Source: Noviherbaspirillum sp. UKPF54
Lineage (GTDB): Bacteria > Pseudomonadota > Gammaproteobacteria > Burkholderiales > Burkholderiaceae_D
Length of the DNA: 64,000 nt
Direction of reading: 5' to 3'
Assembly: GCF_007874125.1 (NCBI RefSeq)
Contig: NZ_CP040128.1
Coordinates: 4,030,001 to 4,094,000 of the forward strand
The notes under the pieces were generated by a model. It made no database searches. It saw only the letters and a program-made list of their open reading frames with translations, and was not told where the DNA came from. Made by a program: the position numbers and the translations under genes. Shown in pieces: positions 26,413 to 59,830 of the stretch. The stretch's first letter is position 1. Every line of letters starts with the position of its first letter.

Positions 26413-27189
26413 TCAGTGCGGCGCGCTATCCTCGCACAGGCGCTTGACGATGCCGAACGCATAGCGCGCCGCGACCCGGTCGATGAATTGCATGAAATCG
26501 ACCGGCGCATCTTCGTTGGCCGCGTCCGACACGGTGCGTACCACCGCGAACGGCACGCCGAATTCGAAACAGACTTGCGCCACCGCCGCGCCTTCCATTT
26601 CCACCGCCAGAAGCGGCGGCAGCGCCTGCTTCAGGCCGGCCAGCTTGTTGCGGCAGTCGATGAATTCGTCGCCGCTGGCAATCAGGCCGCGGTGCACGCG
26701 CGGCTGGTGCAGCCGGAAGGCCTCGATGTCCGGCACGGCGACCAGCTCCCGCAAATCCCTGTCCATGAAATCGGATGCGGCCTTGGCCAGCCGGTTGGTC
26801 AGGTGGATGTCGGAAGCAAAATGCGACTGGCCGGTCAGCGGCACTTCGAAACGCGGAAACAGCGGAGTGGCATCCATGTCGTGCTGCACCAGCGCATCGG
26901 CCACCACGATATCGCCCACGCGCACGTCTGCATCGGCGGAACCGGCCACGCCGGTAAACACGATATGGGTGACACCGAAGCGCTCGATCAGCGTGGCGAC
27001 CGTGGCCGCGGCGGCGACTTTGCCCACGCGGGACAGCACGCACACGCAATCCACGCCCCACAACTTGCCCGTGATGTACTCGCGCATGGCGCGCGTGACG
27101 GGTTGCCGGTCTTGCATGAGGTCGATCAGGCCATGTTGTTCATGTTGCAAGGCGCTGATCACGCCAAGGCGAAAGGGAGGGGAAATCAT
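26413..27189 (-). CDS. mtnN: 5'-methylthioadenosine/S-adenosylhomocysteine nucleosidase family
   Basis: This is a 258-residue nucleosidase that cleaves the N-glycosidic bond of MTA and SAH, freeing adenine and removing SAM by-products. It has GVISALQHEQHGLIDLM at the start, SRVGKVAAAATVATLIERF, VFTGVAGSADADVRVGDIVV, the substrate Glu in LAVEMEGAAVAQV, and the catalytic Asp in VRTVSDAANED. It is slightly longer than E. coli MtnN (232) and could be a purine phosphorylase-like relative, but the paired EMEG and SD motifs favour MTAN. Its upstream side faces the left copy of the origin-like module. No RBS of note was seen. Confidence 0.85.
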   Translation of the reverse strand: MISPPFRLGVISALQHEQHGLIDLMQDRQPVTRAMREYITGKLWGVDCVCVLSRVGKVAAAATVATLIERFGVTHIVFTGVAGSADADVRVGDIVVADALVQHDMDATPLFPRFEVPLTGQSHFASDIHLTNRLAKAASDFMDRDLRELVAVPDIEAFRLHQPRVHRGLIASGDEFIDCRNKLAGLKQALPPLLAVEMEGAAVAQVCFEFGVPFAVVRTVSDAANEDAPVDFMQFIDRVAARYAFGIVKRLCEDSAPH

Positions 27190-27314: not shown

Positions 27315-27374
27315 TATATACGAATAGTAGTAATGGTTAACACCGGCCATCGCCTGTGGATAACCCGGTAAACC
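27315..27374 (-). repeat. Left arm of inverted origin-like module (DnaA box + CTA trinucleotides)
   Basis: Read on the minus strand the order is GGTTTAC, 3 bases, GTTATCCACA (consensus DnaA box, 27355-27364), 13 bases, GTTAACCATTACTACTATT, CG, TATATA (down to 27315). The same order and the same 13-base spacing recur on the plus strand at 30278-30337. The 27-base block GTTAAC to TATATA differs at one position between copies. A second exact box, TTATCCACA, lies at 27513-27521, and a one-mismatch box at 27479-27487. The rest of the 382-base gap (27190-27571) holds no gene that can be supported and is AT-rich around 27290-27330 and 27400-27570. The layout matches the unwinding core of bacterial origins (DnaA box, GC spacer, DnaA-trio, AT stretch). 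Confidence 0.7.
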
Positions 27375-27571
27375 GCCGGAAAATCAGAAGTTTACGGCTT
27401 GCATAAAACTTTTGATAAAACCTGTATGGCGCAAGGATAGTTTTGGGACAAAAATCCGGGTGTGGAAAGGTATCTTGGTTATCCCCAATGCTTCAAGCGG
27501 AAATTCAAGGACTTATCCACAGGCGTAAAAGCAACAACCAAGCAAGAAATCGTCAAAATATTAAATCTTTG

Positions 27572-28459
27572 CTATTCATTTCCCCATAACGCTTGTAGCA
27601 ATGCAAAGACGGTAGCGATCGTGGGCTCGTTCCTGCGCTTGGCCAAGGCGATGAACGACAGGTCGGTCGACAGGCTGACCTTGTCGGCGATCACCAGGCC
27701 GTGCGCATGCGCTTCGCGCAAGGCGATCGACTCGCGCATCAACGACAGCCCCACGCCCGACTTCACCAGATCCAGCATCGACGGTTCCTGGTCGACCAGG
27801 GCCACCTTGTTGGGCGTGACCTTGTAATGCCCGAAGGTCTTGGTGAGCAGGCGGTGGTGGGCCGATTCGGGCGGCGTCCACAGCCACGGCAGCTTCGCCA
27901 GCGCCGGCCAGTCGCGGCCGGCGACGCGGGTTTTCCAGCCTTGCGGCGCGACCACGTTGTAGGTAAACGACGTCAGCCGCAGCGCGTGGAATTCCTTGCC
28001 CGGGGTGCCGAGGAAATAGCCGACATCGAGCGTGCCGGCCTTGACCTGTTGCAGCACCCAGCCCGACATCCCGTGCTGCAGCTGGGTCGACAGCTGCGGA
28101 TAGCTTTCCACCAGCCGTTTCAGGAAGGGCCCGAGACGGATGAATTCCGGGTCGAGGATGGTGCCGATCGACAGCCGCCCCGACAGCGTCGAATGCAGGG
28201 CAGCCGCGCCCTGGCGGAACTCGGCCACGCTGTCCATGACGCGCTCGGCGAACGGCAAGAGCTTGGCGCCGTCGTCGGTCAGAGCCATGCCGGATGGCGT
28301 GCGGGTGAATAGCTGCAGGTTCAGCGCATTTTGCAGCGACTTGATCTGCAGGCTGACCGCCGGCTGGGTCAGGTGCAGCCGCTCGGCGGCGCGCGTCAGA
28401 TTGCCTTCGCGGGCGACGGTGACGAAGGCGCGCAATTGGGTCAGGTCCATGCCAGTCAT
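27572..28459 (-). CDS. LysR-family transcriptional regulator
   Basis: This is a 295-residue LysR protein. The winged helix-turn-helix occupies residues 4-65 ([40 protein letters not shown], then [14 protein letters not shown]). The effector domain covers about 90-290 ([30 protein letters not shown] and later [23 protein letters not shown]). It is divergent from mmsA with a 100-base spacer containing a TTATAA dyad, so it probably regulates mmsA. The start at 28459 or the ATG three codons later are equally possible; neither has a clear RBS. The family is certain; the ligand is unknown. Confidence 0.88.
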
Positions 28460-28477
28460 TATAAAACCGGCTTATAA
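28459..28477. promoter_or_regulatory. TTATAA dyad in lysR-mmsA spacer
   Basis: Two TTATAA elements (28459-28464 and 28472-28477) separated by 7 bases form a 19-base dyad overlapping the LysR start codon. It contains the T-N11-A type symmetry usual for LysR boxes. A related TTGATAA follows at 28483. It is a possible LysR binding site; the evidence is symmetry and position only. Confidence 0.35.
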
Positions 28478-28559
28478 CATTCTTGATAAGAACTCATTGG
28501 ATTTGCGATTACGGCAGGGATATGCTGTGGAAAATTGGAAATCTTTAAAAGGAATTCTT

Positions 28560-30068
28560 ATGACGCAGCAGATCCAGCATTACATCAACGGCCAAGTGGT
28601 CGCCTCCACTTCCGGCCGTGCGCAAGACGTGTTCAATCCCGCCACCGGCGAAGTCGGCGCGCGCGTGGCGCTGGCCAGCGTCGCGGAAGTCGAGGCGACC
28701 GTTGCCGCGGCGCGCGATGCCGCGCCCGCCTGGGCCGAGACCGCGCCCTTGAAGCGCGCGCGCATCCTGTTCAAGTTCAAGGAATTGATTGAAAAACACC
28801 AGGACGACCTGGCCGCTGCGATCACGCGCGAGCATGGCAAGGTGTTTTCCGATGCCAAGGGCGAAGTCACGCGCGGGCTGGAAGTGGTCGAATTCGCTTG
28901 CGGCGTGCCGCAGTTGCTGAAGACGCAATTCACCGACAACATCGGTGGCGGCATCGACAATTGGCAGCTGCGCCAGCCGCTGGGCGTGACCGCCGGCATC
29001 ACGCCGTTCAACTTCCCGTTCATGGTGCCGATGTGGATGGCGCCGATGGCGCTTGCCACGGGCAACACCTTTATTTTGAAACCATCCGAGCGCGATCCGT
29101 CGCCGTCATTGATGATTGCCGACCTGCTCAACGAGGCCGGCTTGCCGGACGGCGTGTTCAACGTGGTGCAGGGCGACAAGGTCGCCGTCGACGCGCTGCT
29201 GCACCATCCGGATGTCAAGGCGGTGTCCTTCGTCGGCTCGACCCCGATTGCCGAGTACATCTATACCGAAGGCGTGCGCCGCCAGGGCGCCTATCCACTG
29301 CGCGTGCAGGCGCTGGGCGGCGCCAAGAACCATCTGGTGGTGATGCCGGACGCGAACCTGGAGCAGGCGGTCGATGCCTTGATTGGCGCGGCCTACGGAT
29401 CGGCCGGCGAACGCTGCATGGCCATTTCGGTGGCCGTTGCGGTGGGCAGCGTGGCCGACCGCCTGATCGAGGCGCTGATCCCGCGCGTCAACGCGTTGAA
29501 AGTGAAAAACGGCATGGACGCCGATGCCGAAATGGGCCCGGTGGTCACCGCCCAGCACAAGGCCAAGATCGAGGCGTATATCGCCGGCGGCGTGCAGGCC
29601 GGCGCCAAGCTGCTGGTCGACGGGCGCGGCCTGAAAGTGGCAGGCCACGAAAACGGCTTTTTCCTGGGCGGCTCGCTGTTCGATCATGTGACGCCGGACA
29701 TGACGATTTATAAAGAAGAGATTTTCGGGCCGGTGCTGTGCGTGGTGCGGGTGCCCGATTTCGCGGCCGCGGTCGAGCTGATCAATGCCCATGAATTCGG
29801 CAACGGCGTGTCGCTGTTTACTTCCGACGGCAATACGGCGCGCGAGTTTTCCCGCCGCATCGAAGTCGGCATGGTCGGCATCAACGTGCCGATTCCCGTG
29901 CCGATGGCTTGGCATTCGTTCGGCGGCTGGAAGCGGTCGCTGTTCGGCGACCTGCATGCATACGGCGAAGAGGGCGTGCGCTTCTACACACGCTACAAGT
30001 CAGTGATGCAGCGCTGGCCGCAAACGATCGGCAAGGGAGCGGAATTCACGATGCCGGTGGCGAAGTGA
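28560..30068 (+). CDS. mmsA: CoA-acylating methylmalonate-semialdehyde dehydrogenase
   Basis: This 502-residue aldehyde dehydrogenase converts methylmalonate or malonate semialdehyde, NAD+ and CoA to propionyl- or acetyl-CoA in valine, inositol or beta-alanine breakdown. It shows INGQ at the start, the family signature [34 protein letters not shown], catalytic Cys286 in [14 protein letters not shown], and [21 protein letters not shown] near the end. The general-base Glu of ordinary aldehyde dehydrogenases is replaced in ALGGAKNH, as expected for the CoA-dependent family. ATG 28560 follows AAAGGAATTCTT. It is divergent from a LysR gene, and the pair sits between two inverted origin-like modules. 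Confidence 0.93.
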
Positions 30069-30277
30069 GGCCGGTGTTCAAGCGCTGTCCTTCCCGCTTG
30101 AGCGGGAAGCCGCTGGTGTTTCAATACTTCTGTGGATAACTCTTTGGATAGCCGCTGGATGCGTTGGGAACAACCGTCGAGTTATTCGGCCGCGGATTTT
30201 TTGTCCACGATCTGTCCTTTGTCCATACAGTGCTTGTGCAAGCACTTGTACGGCGCCTAAATGGCTGATTTATTTCC

Positions 30278-30337
30278 GGTTTACGCTGTTATCCACAGAA
30301 ATCGGCAGGCGTTAACCACTACTACTATTCGTATATA
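30278..30337 (+). repeat. Right arm of inverted origin-like module (DnaA box + CTA trinucleotides)
   Basis: On the plus strand the order is GGTTTAC (30278-30284), 3 bases, GTTATCCACA (30288-30297), 13 bases, GTTAACCACTACTACTATT (30311-30329), CG, TATATA (30332-30337), then an AT-rich run to about 30358. It is the mirror copy of 27315-27374. Another exact DnaA box (TGTGGATAA, 30131-30139) and an inverted repeat TTGTGCAAGCACTTG-like segment at 30234-30248 lie in the same 347-base gap (30069-30415). No gene is supported in the gap. Both arms have their DnaA boxes toward mmsA and their AT-rich ends pointing outward. Confidence 0.7.
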
Positions 30338-30415: not shown

Positions 30416-31468
30416 ATGGAGCTGATGGATTTTTGCCGTTATCCGATCATCCAGGCGCCGATGGCAGGCGGAGCGACGACGGCGCAGCTGGTGGCGGCCG
30501 TGTCCAATGGCGGCGGCATCGGTGCGCTGGCCGCCCCCTTGCTGTCGCCGCAGGCATTGGCCGAGCAAGTCGACAAGGTCCGTGCTCTGACCACGCATGC
30601 ATTCATCGTCAACCTGTTCGTGCAGCCGGCGCCGCAACCCGCCGCCGGTGAAGTCGACCGCGCGCGCGAGCTGCTGCGCCCGGTATGGGAGCCGCTCGGC
30701 TGGAACGAACTGCCGCTGCCGACGAAATGGTGCGAGGATTTCCCGGCGCAATTCGAGGCATTGATTGCGGCAAAACCGGCGATCGCCAGTTTCACGTTCG
30801 GCATCTTGAGCGCCGAGCAGGTGGAACGCCTGCACCGGGCCGGCATCTATGTGGTCGGCACCGCCACCAACGTGGCCGAGGCCAAGGCATGGGAAGCGGC
30901 CGGCGCGGATGCCGTCTGCGCGCAGGGCATCGAGGCCGGCGGCCATCGCGGCACCTTCATCGGCGCGCAAGAAGATGGCCTCGGCACATTCACGCTGGTG
31001 CCGCAGATGGCCGACGCGGTGCGCATCCCGGTGATCGCCGCCGGCGGCATCATGGATGGACGCGGCATCGCCGCCGCCCTGGCACTGGGGGCGCAGGCGG
31101 TCCAGATGGGAACGGCTTTTCTGGCCACCGACGAGTCGGGCATCCATCCGCTCTACAAGGAGCGCCTGCTGGAAGCGGCACATGCGCCGGCGCGCGCGGC
31201 CACGCGCCTGACCCGCGCGTTTTCCGGGCGCTATGCGCGCGGACTGGTCAACCGCTTCATGGATGCGATGCAGGACGTGGAGCGCCAGCTGCCCGCCTAT
31301 CCGGTGCAGAACGCCTTGACCGGCGCGATCCGCTCGCAGGCGGCGAAACTGAATGAAACGGAACTGATGTCCTTGTGGGCCGGGCAGGGCGTGGCTATGG
31401 TGCGCGCCATGCCGGCCGCAAGGCTGCTGGAGACGCTGGTGGCCGAATGGCGCCAGGCATTGATTTGA
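30416..31468 (+). CDS. Nitronate monooxygenase family (NMO, FMN-dependent)
   Basis: This is a 350-residue TIM-barrel flavoprotein of the nitronate monooxygenase / 2-nitropropane dioxygenase family, which oxidises alkyl nitronates such as propionate-3-nitronate. It shows YPIIQAPMAGGATTAQLVAAVSNGGGIGAL at the start, the FMN/active-site motif QGIEAGGHRGTF, and VIAAGGIMDGRGIAAALALGAQAVQMGTAFLATDES for phosphate binding. Its length fits the family. The start at 30416 follows GAGAGGACAGC. The GMC oxidoreductase gene begins 30 bases after its stop, so the two may form an operon. The specific substrate is not deducible. Confidence 0.88.
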   Translation: MELMDFCRYPIIQAPMAGGATTAQLVAAVSNGGGIGALAAPLLSPQALAEQVDKVRALTTHAFIVNLFVQPAPQPAAGEVDRARELLRPVWEPLGWNELPLPTKWCEDFPAQFEALIAAKPAIASFTFGILSAEQVERLHRAGIYVVGTATNVAEAKAWEAAGADAVCAQGIEAGGHRGTFIGAQEDGLGTFTLVPQMADAVRIPVIAAGGIMDGRGIAAALALGAQAVQMGTAFLATDESGIHPLYKERLLEAAHAPARAATRLTRAFSGRYARGLVNRFMDAMQDVERQLPAYPVQNALTGAIRSQAAKLNETELMSLWAGQGVAMVRAMPAARLLETLVAEWRQALI

Positions 31469-40346: not shown

Positions 40347-40362
40347 TGTTTCACGTGAAACA
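40347..40362. other. parS centromere-like site 1
   Basis: TGTTTCACGTGAAACA is an exact 16-base match to the bacterial parS consensus bound by ParB/Spo0J. It lies 22 bases before the start of the 243-residue membrane-protein gene and about 5 kb from parB. Confidence 0.92.
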
Positions 40363-41166: not shown

Positions 41167-41182
41167 TGTTTCACGTGAAACA
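41167..41182. other. parS centromere-like site 2
   Basis: This is a second exact TGTTTCACGTGAAACA, between the 243-residue membrane-protein gene and mnmG, 820 bases from site 1. A TATAAT element (41233-41238) that may belong to the mnmG promoter lies 50 bases downstream; its -35 match is poor. Confidence 0.92.
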
Positions 41183-44531: not shown

Positions 44532-45302
44532 ATGGCAAAAATCTTCTGCGTCGCCAACCAGAAAGGCGGCGTCGGCAAAACCACCACTGCCGTCAATCTC
44601 GCCGCCGGCTTGGCCCAACTCGATCAGCGCGTATTGCTGATCGATCTCGACCCTCAAGGCAACGCGACCATGGGTGCCGGCATCAACAAGTCCGAACTCG
44701 ACGCATCGGTTTATGAAGTGCTGCTGGGATTGTCCGATATCAAGACTGCGCGCAAGACTGACGGCAACGGCGGCTTTCACGTGTTACCCGCCAACCGTGA
44801 ACTGGCAGGCGCGGAAGTGGAAATGGTGGAACTCGAGAACCGGGAAAAGCGCTTGAAAGATGCTGTTGCCGCAGTCGATGCCGAGTACGATTTTGTGCTG
44901 ATCGATTGCCCGCCCGCGCTGTCGATGCTCACGCTCAACGGCTTGTGCGCCGCGCACGGCGTGATCATCCCGATGCAGTGCGAGTATTACGCACTGGAAG
45001 GCTTGTCCGACCTAGTCAACACCATCAAGAAAGTGCACGCGAAGCTCAATACCGACCTGAAGATCATCGGCTTGCTGCGCGTAATGTTTGATCCGCGCAT
45101 GACCCTGTCGCAGCAAGTGTCGGCACAGCTGGAACAGCATTTCGGCGACAAGGTTTTTAAGACCATTATCCCGCGCAACGTGCGCCTGGCCGAAGCCCCG
45201 TCCTACGGCATGCCCGGCGTGTCCTTCGATCCCTCGTCCAAGGGCGCGCAAGCCTATATCGCGTTCGGTGCCGAGATGGTTCAGCGCATCAAATCCATGT
45301 AA
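44532..45302 (+). CDS. parA: Chromosome partitioning ATPase ParA (Soj)
   Basis: This is a 256-residue deviant-Walker ATPase. It shows IFCVANQKGGVGKTTTAVNLAAGLA (signature Lys and P-loop), VLLIDLDPQGNATMG, and YDFVLIDCPPALSMLTLNGL. ATP-dependent DNA binding drives segregation of ParB-parS complexes near the origin. There is no N-terminal helix-turn-helix, so it is the chromosomal, small ParA type. It starts 6 bases after the lysE stop and is followed by parB 12 bases later. Two parS sites lie 3.4 and 4.2 kb upstream. Confidence 0.96.
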   Translation: MAKIFCVANQKGGVGKTTTAVNLAAGLAQLDQRVLLIDLDPQGNATMGAGINKSELDASVYEVLLGLSDIKTARKTDGNGGFHVLPANRELAGAEVEMVELENREKRLKDAVAAVDAEYDFVLIDCPPALSMLTLNGLCAAHGVIIPMQCEYYALEGLSDLVNTIKKVHAKLNTDLKIIGLLRVMFDPRMTLSQQVSAQLEQHFGDKVFKTIIPRNVRLAEAPSYGMPGVSFDPSSKGAQAYIAFGAEMVQRIKSM

Positions 45303-45314
45303 CTGAAGAAGCTT

Positions 45315-46199
45315 ATGGCTACCAAAAAATCCAAGGGACTCGGGCGCGGGCTCGATGCATTGCTCGGCGGCTCCTCCGACTTCGAGGAAGCGGTTCCCAA
45401 TGTGCAGGGCGCGCCTGCGACCCTCCATGTAGCGCAACTGCAGGCCGGCAAGTACCAGCCGCGCACGCGCATGGATGAGGGCGCGTTGAACGAGTTGGCC
45501 GCCTCGATCAAGGCGCAGGGCTTGATGCAGCCGATCCTGGTGCGCCCGATTGCACACAACGGCACCGACAAGTACGAAATCATTGCCGGCGAGCGCCGCT
45601 TTCGCGCCGCCCAGATCGCCGGCCTGACCGATGTCCCGGTGCTGGTCAAGGATGTCGACGACCAAGCCGCCGCCGCCATGGCGCTGATCGAAAACATCCA
45701 GCGCGAAGACTTGAACCCGCTGGAAGAGGCGCAAGGCATCCAGCGCCTGATCACCGATTTCAGTTTCACTCATGAGCAGGCCGCCGGCGCGGTCGGCCGC
45801 TCGCGCAGCGCCGTGTCCAACCTGCTGCGCCTGTTGAATCTAGCCAAGCCGGTGCAAACCATGCTGATGGCCGGCGACATCGACATGGGCCATGCGCGCG
45901 CCTTGCTGGCGGTCGATGCCGCGACCCAGATCACGCTGGCAAACCAGGTCGTCGCCAAGCGCATGTCCGTGCGCGATGCCGAAAAGCTGGTGGCGAAGGC
46001 ATCCGACGAAGCGACGGCCAAACCGCGCAATGGCAAGGAAAAGTCGCGCGACATTGCCCGCCTGGAAGAAGAGTTGTCCGATGCGCTAGCCACCCAAGTC
46101 GCCATCAAGCTCGGCGCGAAGAACAAGGGCCAGCTCGTCATCGATTTCGCGAACCTCGATGCACTGGACGGACTGATCGCAAAGCTGCGAGGCGAGTAG
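45315..46199 (+). CDS. parB: Chromosome partitioning protein ParB (Spo0J)
   Basis: This is a 294-residue ParB. The N-terminus is GLGRGLDALLGG, a conserved ParA-stimulating region. The CTPase/ParB-N domain covers about residues 35-125 (GKYQPRTRMDEGALNELAASIKAQGLMQPILVRP, then GERRFRAAQIAGLTDVPVLV, where GERRFRAA is the nucleotide motif). The helix-turn-helix occupies about 140-200 (FTHEQAAGAVGRSRSAVSNLLRLLNL), and the C-terminal dimer domain ends the protein. It binds the two parS sites upstream and spreads as a CTP-dependent clamp. A clear terminator follows. Confidence 0.96.
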   Translation: MATKKSKGLGRGLDALLGGSSDFEEAVPNVQGAPATLHVAQLQAGKYQPRTRMDEGALNELAASIKAQGLMQPILVRPIAHNGTDKYEIIAGERRFRAAQIAGLTDVPVLVKDVDDQAAAAMALIENIQREDLNPLEEAQGIQRLITDFSFTHEQAAGAVGRSRSAVSNLLRLLNLAKPVQTMLMAGDIDMGHARALLAVDAATQITLANQVVAKRMSVRDAEKLVAKASDEATAKPRNGKEKSRDIARLEEELSDALATQVAIKLGAKNKGQLVIDFANLDALDGLIAKLRGE

Positions 46200-59100: not shown

Positions 59101-59254
59101 TGCCAAGTGGTTACTGCCCGCATGCAAAATGTGTCTTCGGGTGAACAGAAACGGACCAACTTAAAGTGGTTTATTCACAGAGATGCGCTTGTGCATTGCA
59201 GCACGAAAATTTATTTTTATCTACTTTTCCAGCCCGCATTCGATTTATAACTCG

Positions 59255-59379
59255 TTGATTTCAAACGACTTAATTTTTGCTTTTCAATTTAGCATTTTAT
59301 CGAAACCCGCATAAAACCTGGGTTCGCGGGCTGTCAAGAGGGGCTTGTCCACAAAGTTATCCACAGAGTTTGTGGATAG
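59255..59379 (+). repeat. Direct repeat copy 1 with three DnaA boxes
   Basis: This 125-base unit recurs at 59706-59830 with an offset of 451 bases and no net gap. The last 51 bases (59329-59379) are identical in both copies and hold TTGTCCACA, TTATCCACA and inverted TGTGGATAG within 35 bases. The upstream 74 bases are AT-rich and diverged, sharing TTGATTT, GCTTTTCAA and AAACCCGCAT blocks. Confidence 0.85.
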
Positions 59380-59469
59380 TTAAAAAAGCGCTTATGAAAC
59401 GGGTAGTTAGATCACTTTCTGAAAAAACGCATTAAGTTTTCAATCCGTCTATTTCATTCCCTTGATGCA

Positions 59470-59643
59470 ATGCCCTCTCTTGACACGCTTCGCAATGTCA
59501 AGGGAGAAAAAGTAGCGGTGCAATTTGTTGACGAAGATGTAAGCGGTTTTGCCCACATCAATGTGCGCGAAGTCAGAGCGCCGGAACTAAAAGACGCCAC
59601 GCCGACACAACTTATTCACACCAACAACTTGCATAGAATCTAA
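59470..59643 (+). CDS. Possible 57-residue protein between DnaA-box repeats
   Basis: An open frame of 57 codons (MPSLDTLRNVKGEKVAVQFV through NNLHRI) starts at ATG 59470 and ends TAA 59643. Third positions are not strongly GC-biased, and no Shine-Dalgarno is visible. The local base composition is slightly less AT-rich than the rest of the gap, as for a gene or gene remnant. It does not resemble a known family. It may be a chance frame; it overlaps one degenerate DnaA box. Confidence 0.22.
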   Translation: MPSLDTLRNVKGEKVAVQFVDEDVSGFAHINVREVRAPELKDATPTQLIHTNNLHRI

Positions 59644-59705
59644 AGAGATGCAACAAATTTTTTCCGCGAAATATTTTTTTGCCATCAAGGCGATTTTTTA
59701 AGTCA

Positions 59706-59830
59706 TTGATTTGAAAAGTAATTTTTCCTGCTTTTCAAATGGGCAATTTGTTAAAACCCGCATGAACGCTGGTGTTTCTGGCTGTCAAGAGGGGCTTGTC
59801 CACAAAGTTATCCACAGAGTTTGTGGATAG
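59706..59830 (+). repeat. Direct repeat copy 2 with three DnaA boxes
   Basis: This is the second copy of the 125-base unit, ending 63 bases before priA. The 51-base core 59780-59830 is identical to 59329-59379. Complete identity of the cores against divergence of the flanks implies selection on, or recent conversion of, the DnaA-box cluster. Confidence 0.85.

Follow-up and report, generated by a model that had tools for sequence, protein, structure and literature searches.

The chromosomal replication origin (oriC) of a soil-dwelling Noviherbaspirillum strain (Oxalobacteraceae) is very probably built of two sequence-complete units of the E. coli type, which diverge from each other 2.9 kb apart on either side of a lysR-mmsA gene pair. 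The genome analyzed is a single contig of 4,718,988 bp, and the two units lie in a stretch of 64,000 nt, positions 4,030,001-4,094,000, that is referred to here as the window. The chances that either unit would be able to open appear evenly balanced. More tentatively, and as somewhat less probable than its opposite, we propose that many members of the family have two, sometimes three, complete and independently competent DnaA origins within a few kb, free in orientation and with genes allowed between them, of which one would be chosen or both fired per cycle.

Anatomy of the two units

A sequence-only reading of the window had described two inverted modules with identical spacing and a single mismatch in a 27-base block, and direct reading of the sequence bore this out: one copy of the block stands on each strand, and the two copies are one base apart (Table 1). 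The block occurs in none of 100 shuffles. Each module contains an exact DnaA box, TTATCCACA, and the box scan recovered the further exact box of each arm that had also been reported. Across the whole genome, the pattern TTATCCACA-N13-GTTAACCANTACTACTATT (with a gap of 24 to CTACTATT) matched only these two modules when up to three mismatches were allowed. Scattered copies, which would make the module an ordinary repeat, did not appear in this genome-wide search, and the modules are therefore not an interspersed repeat. The similarity of the arms reaches about 230 bp per arm, beyond the extent first described, and comprises the inverted repeats 27294-27394/30258-30358 (71%), 27422-27454/30198-30230 (76%), and 27477-27527/30125-30175 (76%).

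Units of this kind were scanned in 88 pattern-matching stretches plus the window and aligned on a GTTAAC core; 163 were found, of which 158 were kept and 5 were left out because they lay too close to the end of a stretch. The order in the 158 family units is an inverted DnaA box, a predicted IHF site, exactly 18 bp, TTATCCACA, 11-13 bp, GTTAAC-CTACTACTA, and an AT-rich DNA unwinding element (DUE). A box-like inverted match was observed at -230 to -120 of the core in 142 of the 158 units, with the box about 180 bp ahead of the core, and the 20 bp past the DnaA-trios are 84% A+T. Removal of near-duplicates left 115 non-redundant units. Scored against the IHF consensus, YAANNNNTTGATW, 106 of these 115 fit with one mismatch or none at a distance of 18 bp to the box (52 of them exactly), compared with a mean of 0.10 of the 115 at 59 other distances. 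An inverted exact box was counted 99 times at 156-159 bp and 19 times at 122-124 bp, and is present somewhere in the piece for 106 of the 115 units. The family alignments also contain conserved blocks between the R1-like and the R4-like box.

Both arms of the window share this anatomy. The R1-like box is directed into the AT-rich DUE, as an E. coli-type oriC requires, the IHF consensus with one mismatch stands at 18 bp, and the inverted R4-like box stands at 158 bp. At least three DnaA-trios lie beside a DnaA box (right arm, CTACTACTA; left arm, TTACTACTA), and a degenerate box with two mismatches in the right arm and three in the left arm is located between the exact box and the first trio.

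The same order of DUE, R1 directed toward the DUE, IHF site, and inverted distal box is found in E. coli oriC (mnmG-mioC; our stretch L259). The E. coli sequence reads TTGATC, 18 bp, TTATCCACA, that is, the IHF spacing is the same as here, with two mismatches in the IHF site, whereas the inverted distal box is at 180 bp rather than 158 bp, and mnmG, which adjoins oriC in E. coli, is about 11 kb from the locus. E. coli has a median of one such place per genome; by contrast, there are two units here, with perfect CTA repeats and with genes between them. For E. coli, the R1-IHF and DUE-R1 distances are described as strictly required, and the left-half complex as fully unwinding, in PMC5742627. 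Because the units match the anatomy of an origin whose left-half complex unwinds fully, each arm looks like a complete unit, judged by sequence, rather than like half of a split origin. Thus, of the initial suggestion of a split or duplicated oriC that encloses lysR-mmsA instead of dnaA, the duplication gains support from the anatomy, and, as described below, from family conservation, parS linkage, and the strand switch of a relative, whereas the split does not fit, since each arm looks complete.

With the DnaA-trio basal unwinding system (BUS; Pelliciari 2021, PMC8287927), the arms share an exact DnaA box, a degenerate tandem box, and at least three trios; they differ in the 21 bp between the exact box and the first trio, in the presence of two copies, and in the IHF-consensus site. 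According to the same paper, screening in the BUS survey left a single candidate in more than 99% of the genomes, so that a second unit would have been dropped.

Copy number, orientation and cargo in relatives

The strict pattern (at most three mismatches) was found in 26 of 100 relatives, namely in 26 of 60 genomes of the family and in 0 of 40 from other families. Among 89 stretches, 63 contain two units, six contain three, 19 contain one, and one contains none; the presence of a unit was the criterion for choosing these stretches, and the same locus can be tiled across more than one of them (as in L178 and L247), so that the genomes are not all distinct and some single-unit stretches result from the separate counting of such tiles. 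In the stretch scored as empty (L211), a unit is truncated by the end of the stretch; L170 contains a further unit of looser fit; and L234 and others have one unit though there is room for a second. Because relatives often carry two or three units, the common view that an origin has one opening site may fail here. The relative orientation of neighboring units is direct in 68 pairs (360-3570 bp), convergent in 4 (498-1120 bp), and divergent in 3 (2868-2934 bp).

The genes between the units, identified with 24 window proteins as probes, vary. lysR-mmsA stands between the units in Noviherbaspirillum (both units in one stretch in the window, L181, and L239), an EAL/GGDEF-type gene in a number of Duganella and Rugamonas, though not in every one, and in one Pseudoduganella, and mtn in Herminiimonas fonticola, Undibacterium terreum, and two other records; in the two-unit stretches of Massilia and Herbaspirillum, these probes recognized no cargo between the units. 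In eight Duganella-/Rugamonas-type stretches (L164, L169, L172, L177, L182, L187, L189, L210), the EAL/GGDEF-type (cyclic-di-GMP) gene lies between direct units about 3.1 kb apart.

Six Noviherbaspirillum genomes (that of the window and five more) were compared arm by arm. Identity is 64% among lysR-side arms, 67% among mmsA-side arms, and 62% across the two types, and the same blocks are conserved in both types, including the R1-like box, the trios, and the AT stretch. In the lysR-side arm of N. aridicola, the distal box is inexact, the IHF site has two mismatches, and one trio is altered; one altered trio was also seen in each of two other arms. The conservation of both arms across these six genomes argues for selection on both.

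A looser pattern, IHF site-18 bp-box with at most one mismatch, was searched in 399 genomes of the order. It was present in 12 of 13 family members and in 67 of 386 others, compared with 3 of 399 genomes for the reversed control. At least two matches within 3 kb were found in 11 of the 13 family genomes, and two within 1 kb in 6 of the 386 genomes outside the family (five in family f27, one in f41). The f27 genomes (G085, G211, G276, G394, G444) have tandem IHF-18-box motifs 246-337 bp apart, and twin units may thus exist in f27, outside Oxalobacteraceae.

Position of the origin and alternative readings

The parS sites and parAB that had been noted near the modules were located to their right: two perfect parS sites, a parA-like gene, and parB. 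Among 11 genomes tested, 9 have a perfect parS 2.6-17.5 kb from a unit, closer to the unit than to dnaA in all nine, and no other perfect parS site was found in the 11. The distance between unit and dnaA is about 7 kb in G039 (contig taken as circular), 347 kb in G032, and 2.56 Mb along the contig in G005; in the genome of the window, dnaA is at C1:3.907 Mb, about 150 kb from the modules. All three 16S genes found in this genome (4.192, 4.594, and 0.754 Mb) are oriented rightward, which we count in favor of an origin at the locus.

Strand asymmetry was read with a k-mer classifier, trained on the chromosome arms of the window's genome (95% in cross-validation over 66 pieces, with the best of five penalties), and from the polarity of FtsK-orienting polar sequences (KOPS), on the assumption that KOPS act here as in E. 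coli. In G032, the k-mer asymmetry switches at 1.855 Mb, and the first unit lies at 1.854 Mb; a switch placed at dnaA (2.201 Mb) fits worse, by 6.8 log units. In this genome, the KOPS polarity is 0 plus/22 minus to the left and 24 plus/2 minus to the right of 1.982 Mb, at a cost of 4.4 for the unit and 17.5 for dnaA. The strand switch of G032 lies at or close to the units, and dnaA is rejected. For G005, the KOPS optimum is at 0.585 Mb with a unit cost of 4.3, and the k-mer switch is loose (170-680 kb). In the window's own genome, the best k-mer switch is at 3.97 Mb with a support of 3.94-4.06 Mb that includes the locus, the tested range overlapping in part with the training arms; the switch comes out at 3.98-4.05 Mb with other word lengths, and the cost is 1.6 for the locus, 3.7 for dnaA, and 7.9 for a group of DnaA boxes at hemE-priA.

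A number of observations speak against an origin made of two units at this locus. At 21 bp, the spacer is longer than the published search allows if the degenerate box is left out of account; the rule there (PMC8287927) is a DnaA box at most 16 bp from the trios, with a tandem second box permitted. The strict pattern is absent from 34 of the 60 family genomes, the 19 single-unit stretches stand beside the twin ones, and two of the 11 genomes lack a perfect parS. The KOPS switch is 48 kb (G005) and 129 kb (G032) away from the unit. In G014, which was picked because dnaA and the modules are far apart there, the asymmetry flips many times; the origin was not readable, and the genome was set aside. 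In the own genome, the k-mers place dnaA only modestly behind the locus, with their optimum at 3.97 Mb; KOPS-like GGGNAGGG has its optimum at 3.733 Mb, which matches no candidate, with costs of 19.0 for the locus, 9.9 for dnaA, and 18.7 for hemE-priA; and the cumulative GC skew over 400 kb is flat, and its minimum, a shallow one at 3.99 Mb, falls in the interval from dnaA to the locus, about 67 kb from the latter, so that GC skew alone does not place the origin. The skew test proposed in the sequence-only reading gave a divided answer: the k-mer switch allows the locus, the GC-skew minimum lies at the distance given, the KOPS polarity disfavors the locus, and the asymmetry in this genome is ambiguous. 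A recent rearrangement near the origin could be the cause of the mismatch. As side observations, KOPS-like polarity and k-mer strand asymmetry conflict over 3.73-4.06 Mb (G000), and the many flips on the 5.13-Mb contig C17 of G014 suggest, as a guess, a mis-ordered assembly or heavy rearrangement.

Among the alternatives, a bipartite origin that opens at one arm only, with the other arm binding DnaA as an accessory half and joined to it by looping (cf. Helicobacter pylori), would still be an oriC at this locus; we regard it as a considerable possibility, though the doubts prevail. Published accounts give bipartite origins two box clusters, a DUE in one cluster, and a spacer gene that is usually dnaA (PMC4285127), and assign unwinding in Epsilonproteobacteria to oriC2 (PMC5043019). 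The locus shares with the bipartite origins around dnaA of B. subtilis and H. pylori two DnaA-box clusters parted by a gene, and, in line with an accessory half, the second unit deviates from the core in several genera, with a gap of 11 or 12 bp. However, trios and an AT stretch are discernible in both arms rather than in one half only, the spacer is lysR-mmsA or other genes and not dnaA, and the relative orientation of the units varies across the family. Likewise, both arms have the R1-like box, trios, and AT stretch in all six Noviherbaspirillum genomes, with small deviations of the IHF site or distal box in either arm. Because both halves appear to have trios and a DUE, we class the locus not with the classical bipartite origins but as a new, twin form of an oriC with E. 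coli anatomy.

It is improbable that the origin lies upstream of dnaA and that the modules are DnaA-binding regulatory or titration sites. The gene is about 150 kb off, inverted exact boxes precede it at C1:3907566 and 3907622, three more exact boxes lie within 8 kb, and KOPS in the own genome favor dnaA over the locus, though neither fits. In G039, unit and dnaA cannot be separated because they are within about 7 kb of each other if the contig is circular. Against this alternative, the exact core GTTAACNAYTACTACTA occurs only in the two modules within the 400 kb read, both k-mers and KOPS reject dnaA in G032, parS is consistently closer to the units, and titration would presumably not require the retained IHF site, 18-bp spacing, and DUE. 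The two boxes upstream of dnaA lack the exact GTTAAC-trio core and perhaps serve dnaA autoregulation. A published parallel is Cupriavidus metallidurans, where the skew switch is some 90 kb away from dnaA and adjoins a region of 213 nt that has three perfect boxes (PMC2864759).

Still less credible is the hemE-priA box cluster (window 59171-59830) as the true origin, although it contains two box triplets 451 bp apart and a hemE-adjacent origin has been predicted in Ralstonia pickettii 12D (Gao 2015, PMC4403523). No trio core was seen in this cluster on reading the sequence, and the own-genome k-mer switch disfavors it, as given above, while its KOPS cost is about that of the locus. In G032, two triplet matches are at 4.20 Mb (hemE-priA placement presumed), about 2.35 Mb from the asymmetry switch. 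The triplets, TTGTCCACA-N3-TTATCCACA-N4-TTGTGGATA at 59345-59378 and 59796-59829, have at least one match with at most three mismatches in 64 of 100 relatives, and several family genomes have two of them roughly 390-465 bp apart, approximately 18-46 kb from the origin unit. We take them to be possibly a DnaA-regulating site, a mere candidate, similar to DnaA-reactivating sequences (DARS) or datA.

Finally, the inverted pair brackets a gene pair and a gene start follows each module, but the readings as mobile-element ends carrying lysR-mmsA or as DnaA-controlled promoters of mtn and the nitronate monooxygenase (NMO) gene are very unlikely, as the genome holds one pair only and the family modules occur in all relative orientations, with varied or no recognized cargo and different neighbors.

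Proposed mode of action and relation to other origins

With two E. coli-type units as the preferred reading, DnaA would bind the R1-like box and the outward-facing distal box in each unit, and IHF would introduce a bend at its site, at 18 bp from the former. DnaA would then extend over the degenerate second box onto the trios and open the TATATA stretch, where the helicase would be loaded. ParB bound to parS, about 10 kb from the units, would segregate the new origins. One unit might start a given round, with the other as a redundant or cooperating site, and the enclosed genes, which vary across the family, would be passengers.

Table 1. Proposed origin units, enclosed genes, and neighboring features in the window (MTA/SAH, methylthioadenosine/S-adenosylhomocysteine).
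Feature	Position	Strand	Basis
Left arm GTTAACCATTACTACTATT: degenerate second DnaA box and trios, TATATA unwinding stretch, pointing left	27315..27341	-	sequence, family-conserved block
Left arm high-affinity DnaA box TTATCCACA, R1-like	27355..27363	-	exact-box scan
Left arm predicted IHF site, YAANNNNTTGATW with one mismatch, 18 bp from R1-like box	27382..27394	-	sequence; family statistic
Left arm inverted R4-like DnaA box, 158 bp from R1-like box	27513..27521	+	box scan, arm alignment
lysR-type regulator between arms	27572..28459	-	Pfam HTH_1 and LysR_substrate
mmsA, CoA-acylating methylmalonate-semialdehyde dehydrogenase, between arms	28560..30068	+	TIGR01722, 690.8 bits
Right arm inverted R4-like DnaA box, 158 bp from R1-like box	30131..30139	-	box scan, arm alignment
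Right arm predicted IHF site, one mismatch, 18 bp before R1-like box	30258..30270	+	sequence; family statistic
Right arm high-affinity DnaA box TTATCCACA, R1-like	30289..30297	+	exact-box scan
Right arm GTTAACCACTACTACTATT: degenerate box and trios, TATATA unwinding stretch, pointing right	30311..30337	+	sequence, family-conserved block
mtn (MTA/SAH nucleosidase), left neighbor; often adjoins units in family	26413..27189	-	profile match, family probes
NMO-family gene, right neighbor; often adjoins units in family	30416..31468	+	profile match, family probes
Perfect 16-bp parS	40347..40362	.	
Perfect 16-bp parS	41167..41182	.	
parA-like gene	44532..45302	+	ParA-family matches, best model under its own cut-off
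parB	45315..46199	+	TIGR00180, 194.3 bits, above cut-off

Two origin-like regions per chromosome have also been described as putative double origins (Gao 2015, PMC4403523); those are 150-882 kb apart or beside a duplicated dnaA, whereas the units described here are 0.36-3.6 kb apart and occur in many genera of one family. Among the literature matches listed, the titles and abstract beginnings showed no study of an Oxalobacteraceae origin and no twin DUEs, a search with most subscription papers and DoriC outside its scope, so that novelty is unproven. The reason for the splitting of origins is stated to be unknown in PMC4285127. Whether spacing, orientation, and a second unit are needed is testable, because pairs of all three kinds (tandem, convergent, divergent) exist naturally among the relatives, some of them with genes in between and some without. 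The 18-bp IHF-R1 spacing together with perfect DnaA-trios brings the IHF-bend and trio unwinding models together in one sequence, and the units provide a simple pattern to locate oriC in Oxalobacteraceae genomes, where the distance to dnaA varies widely.

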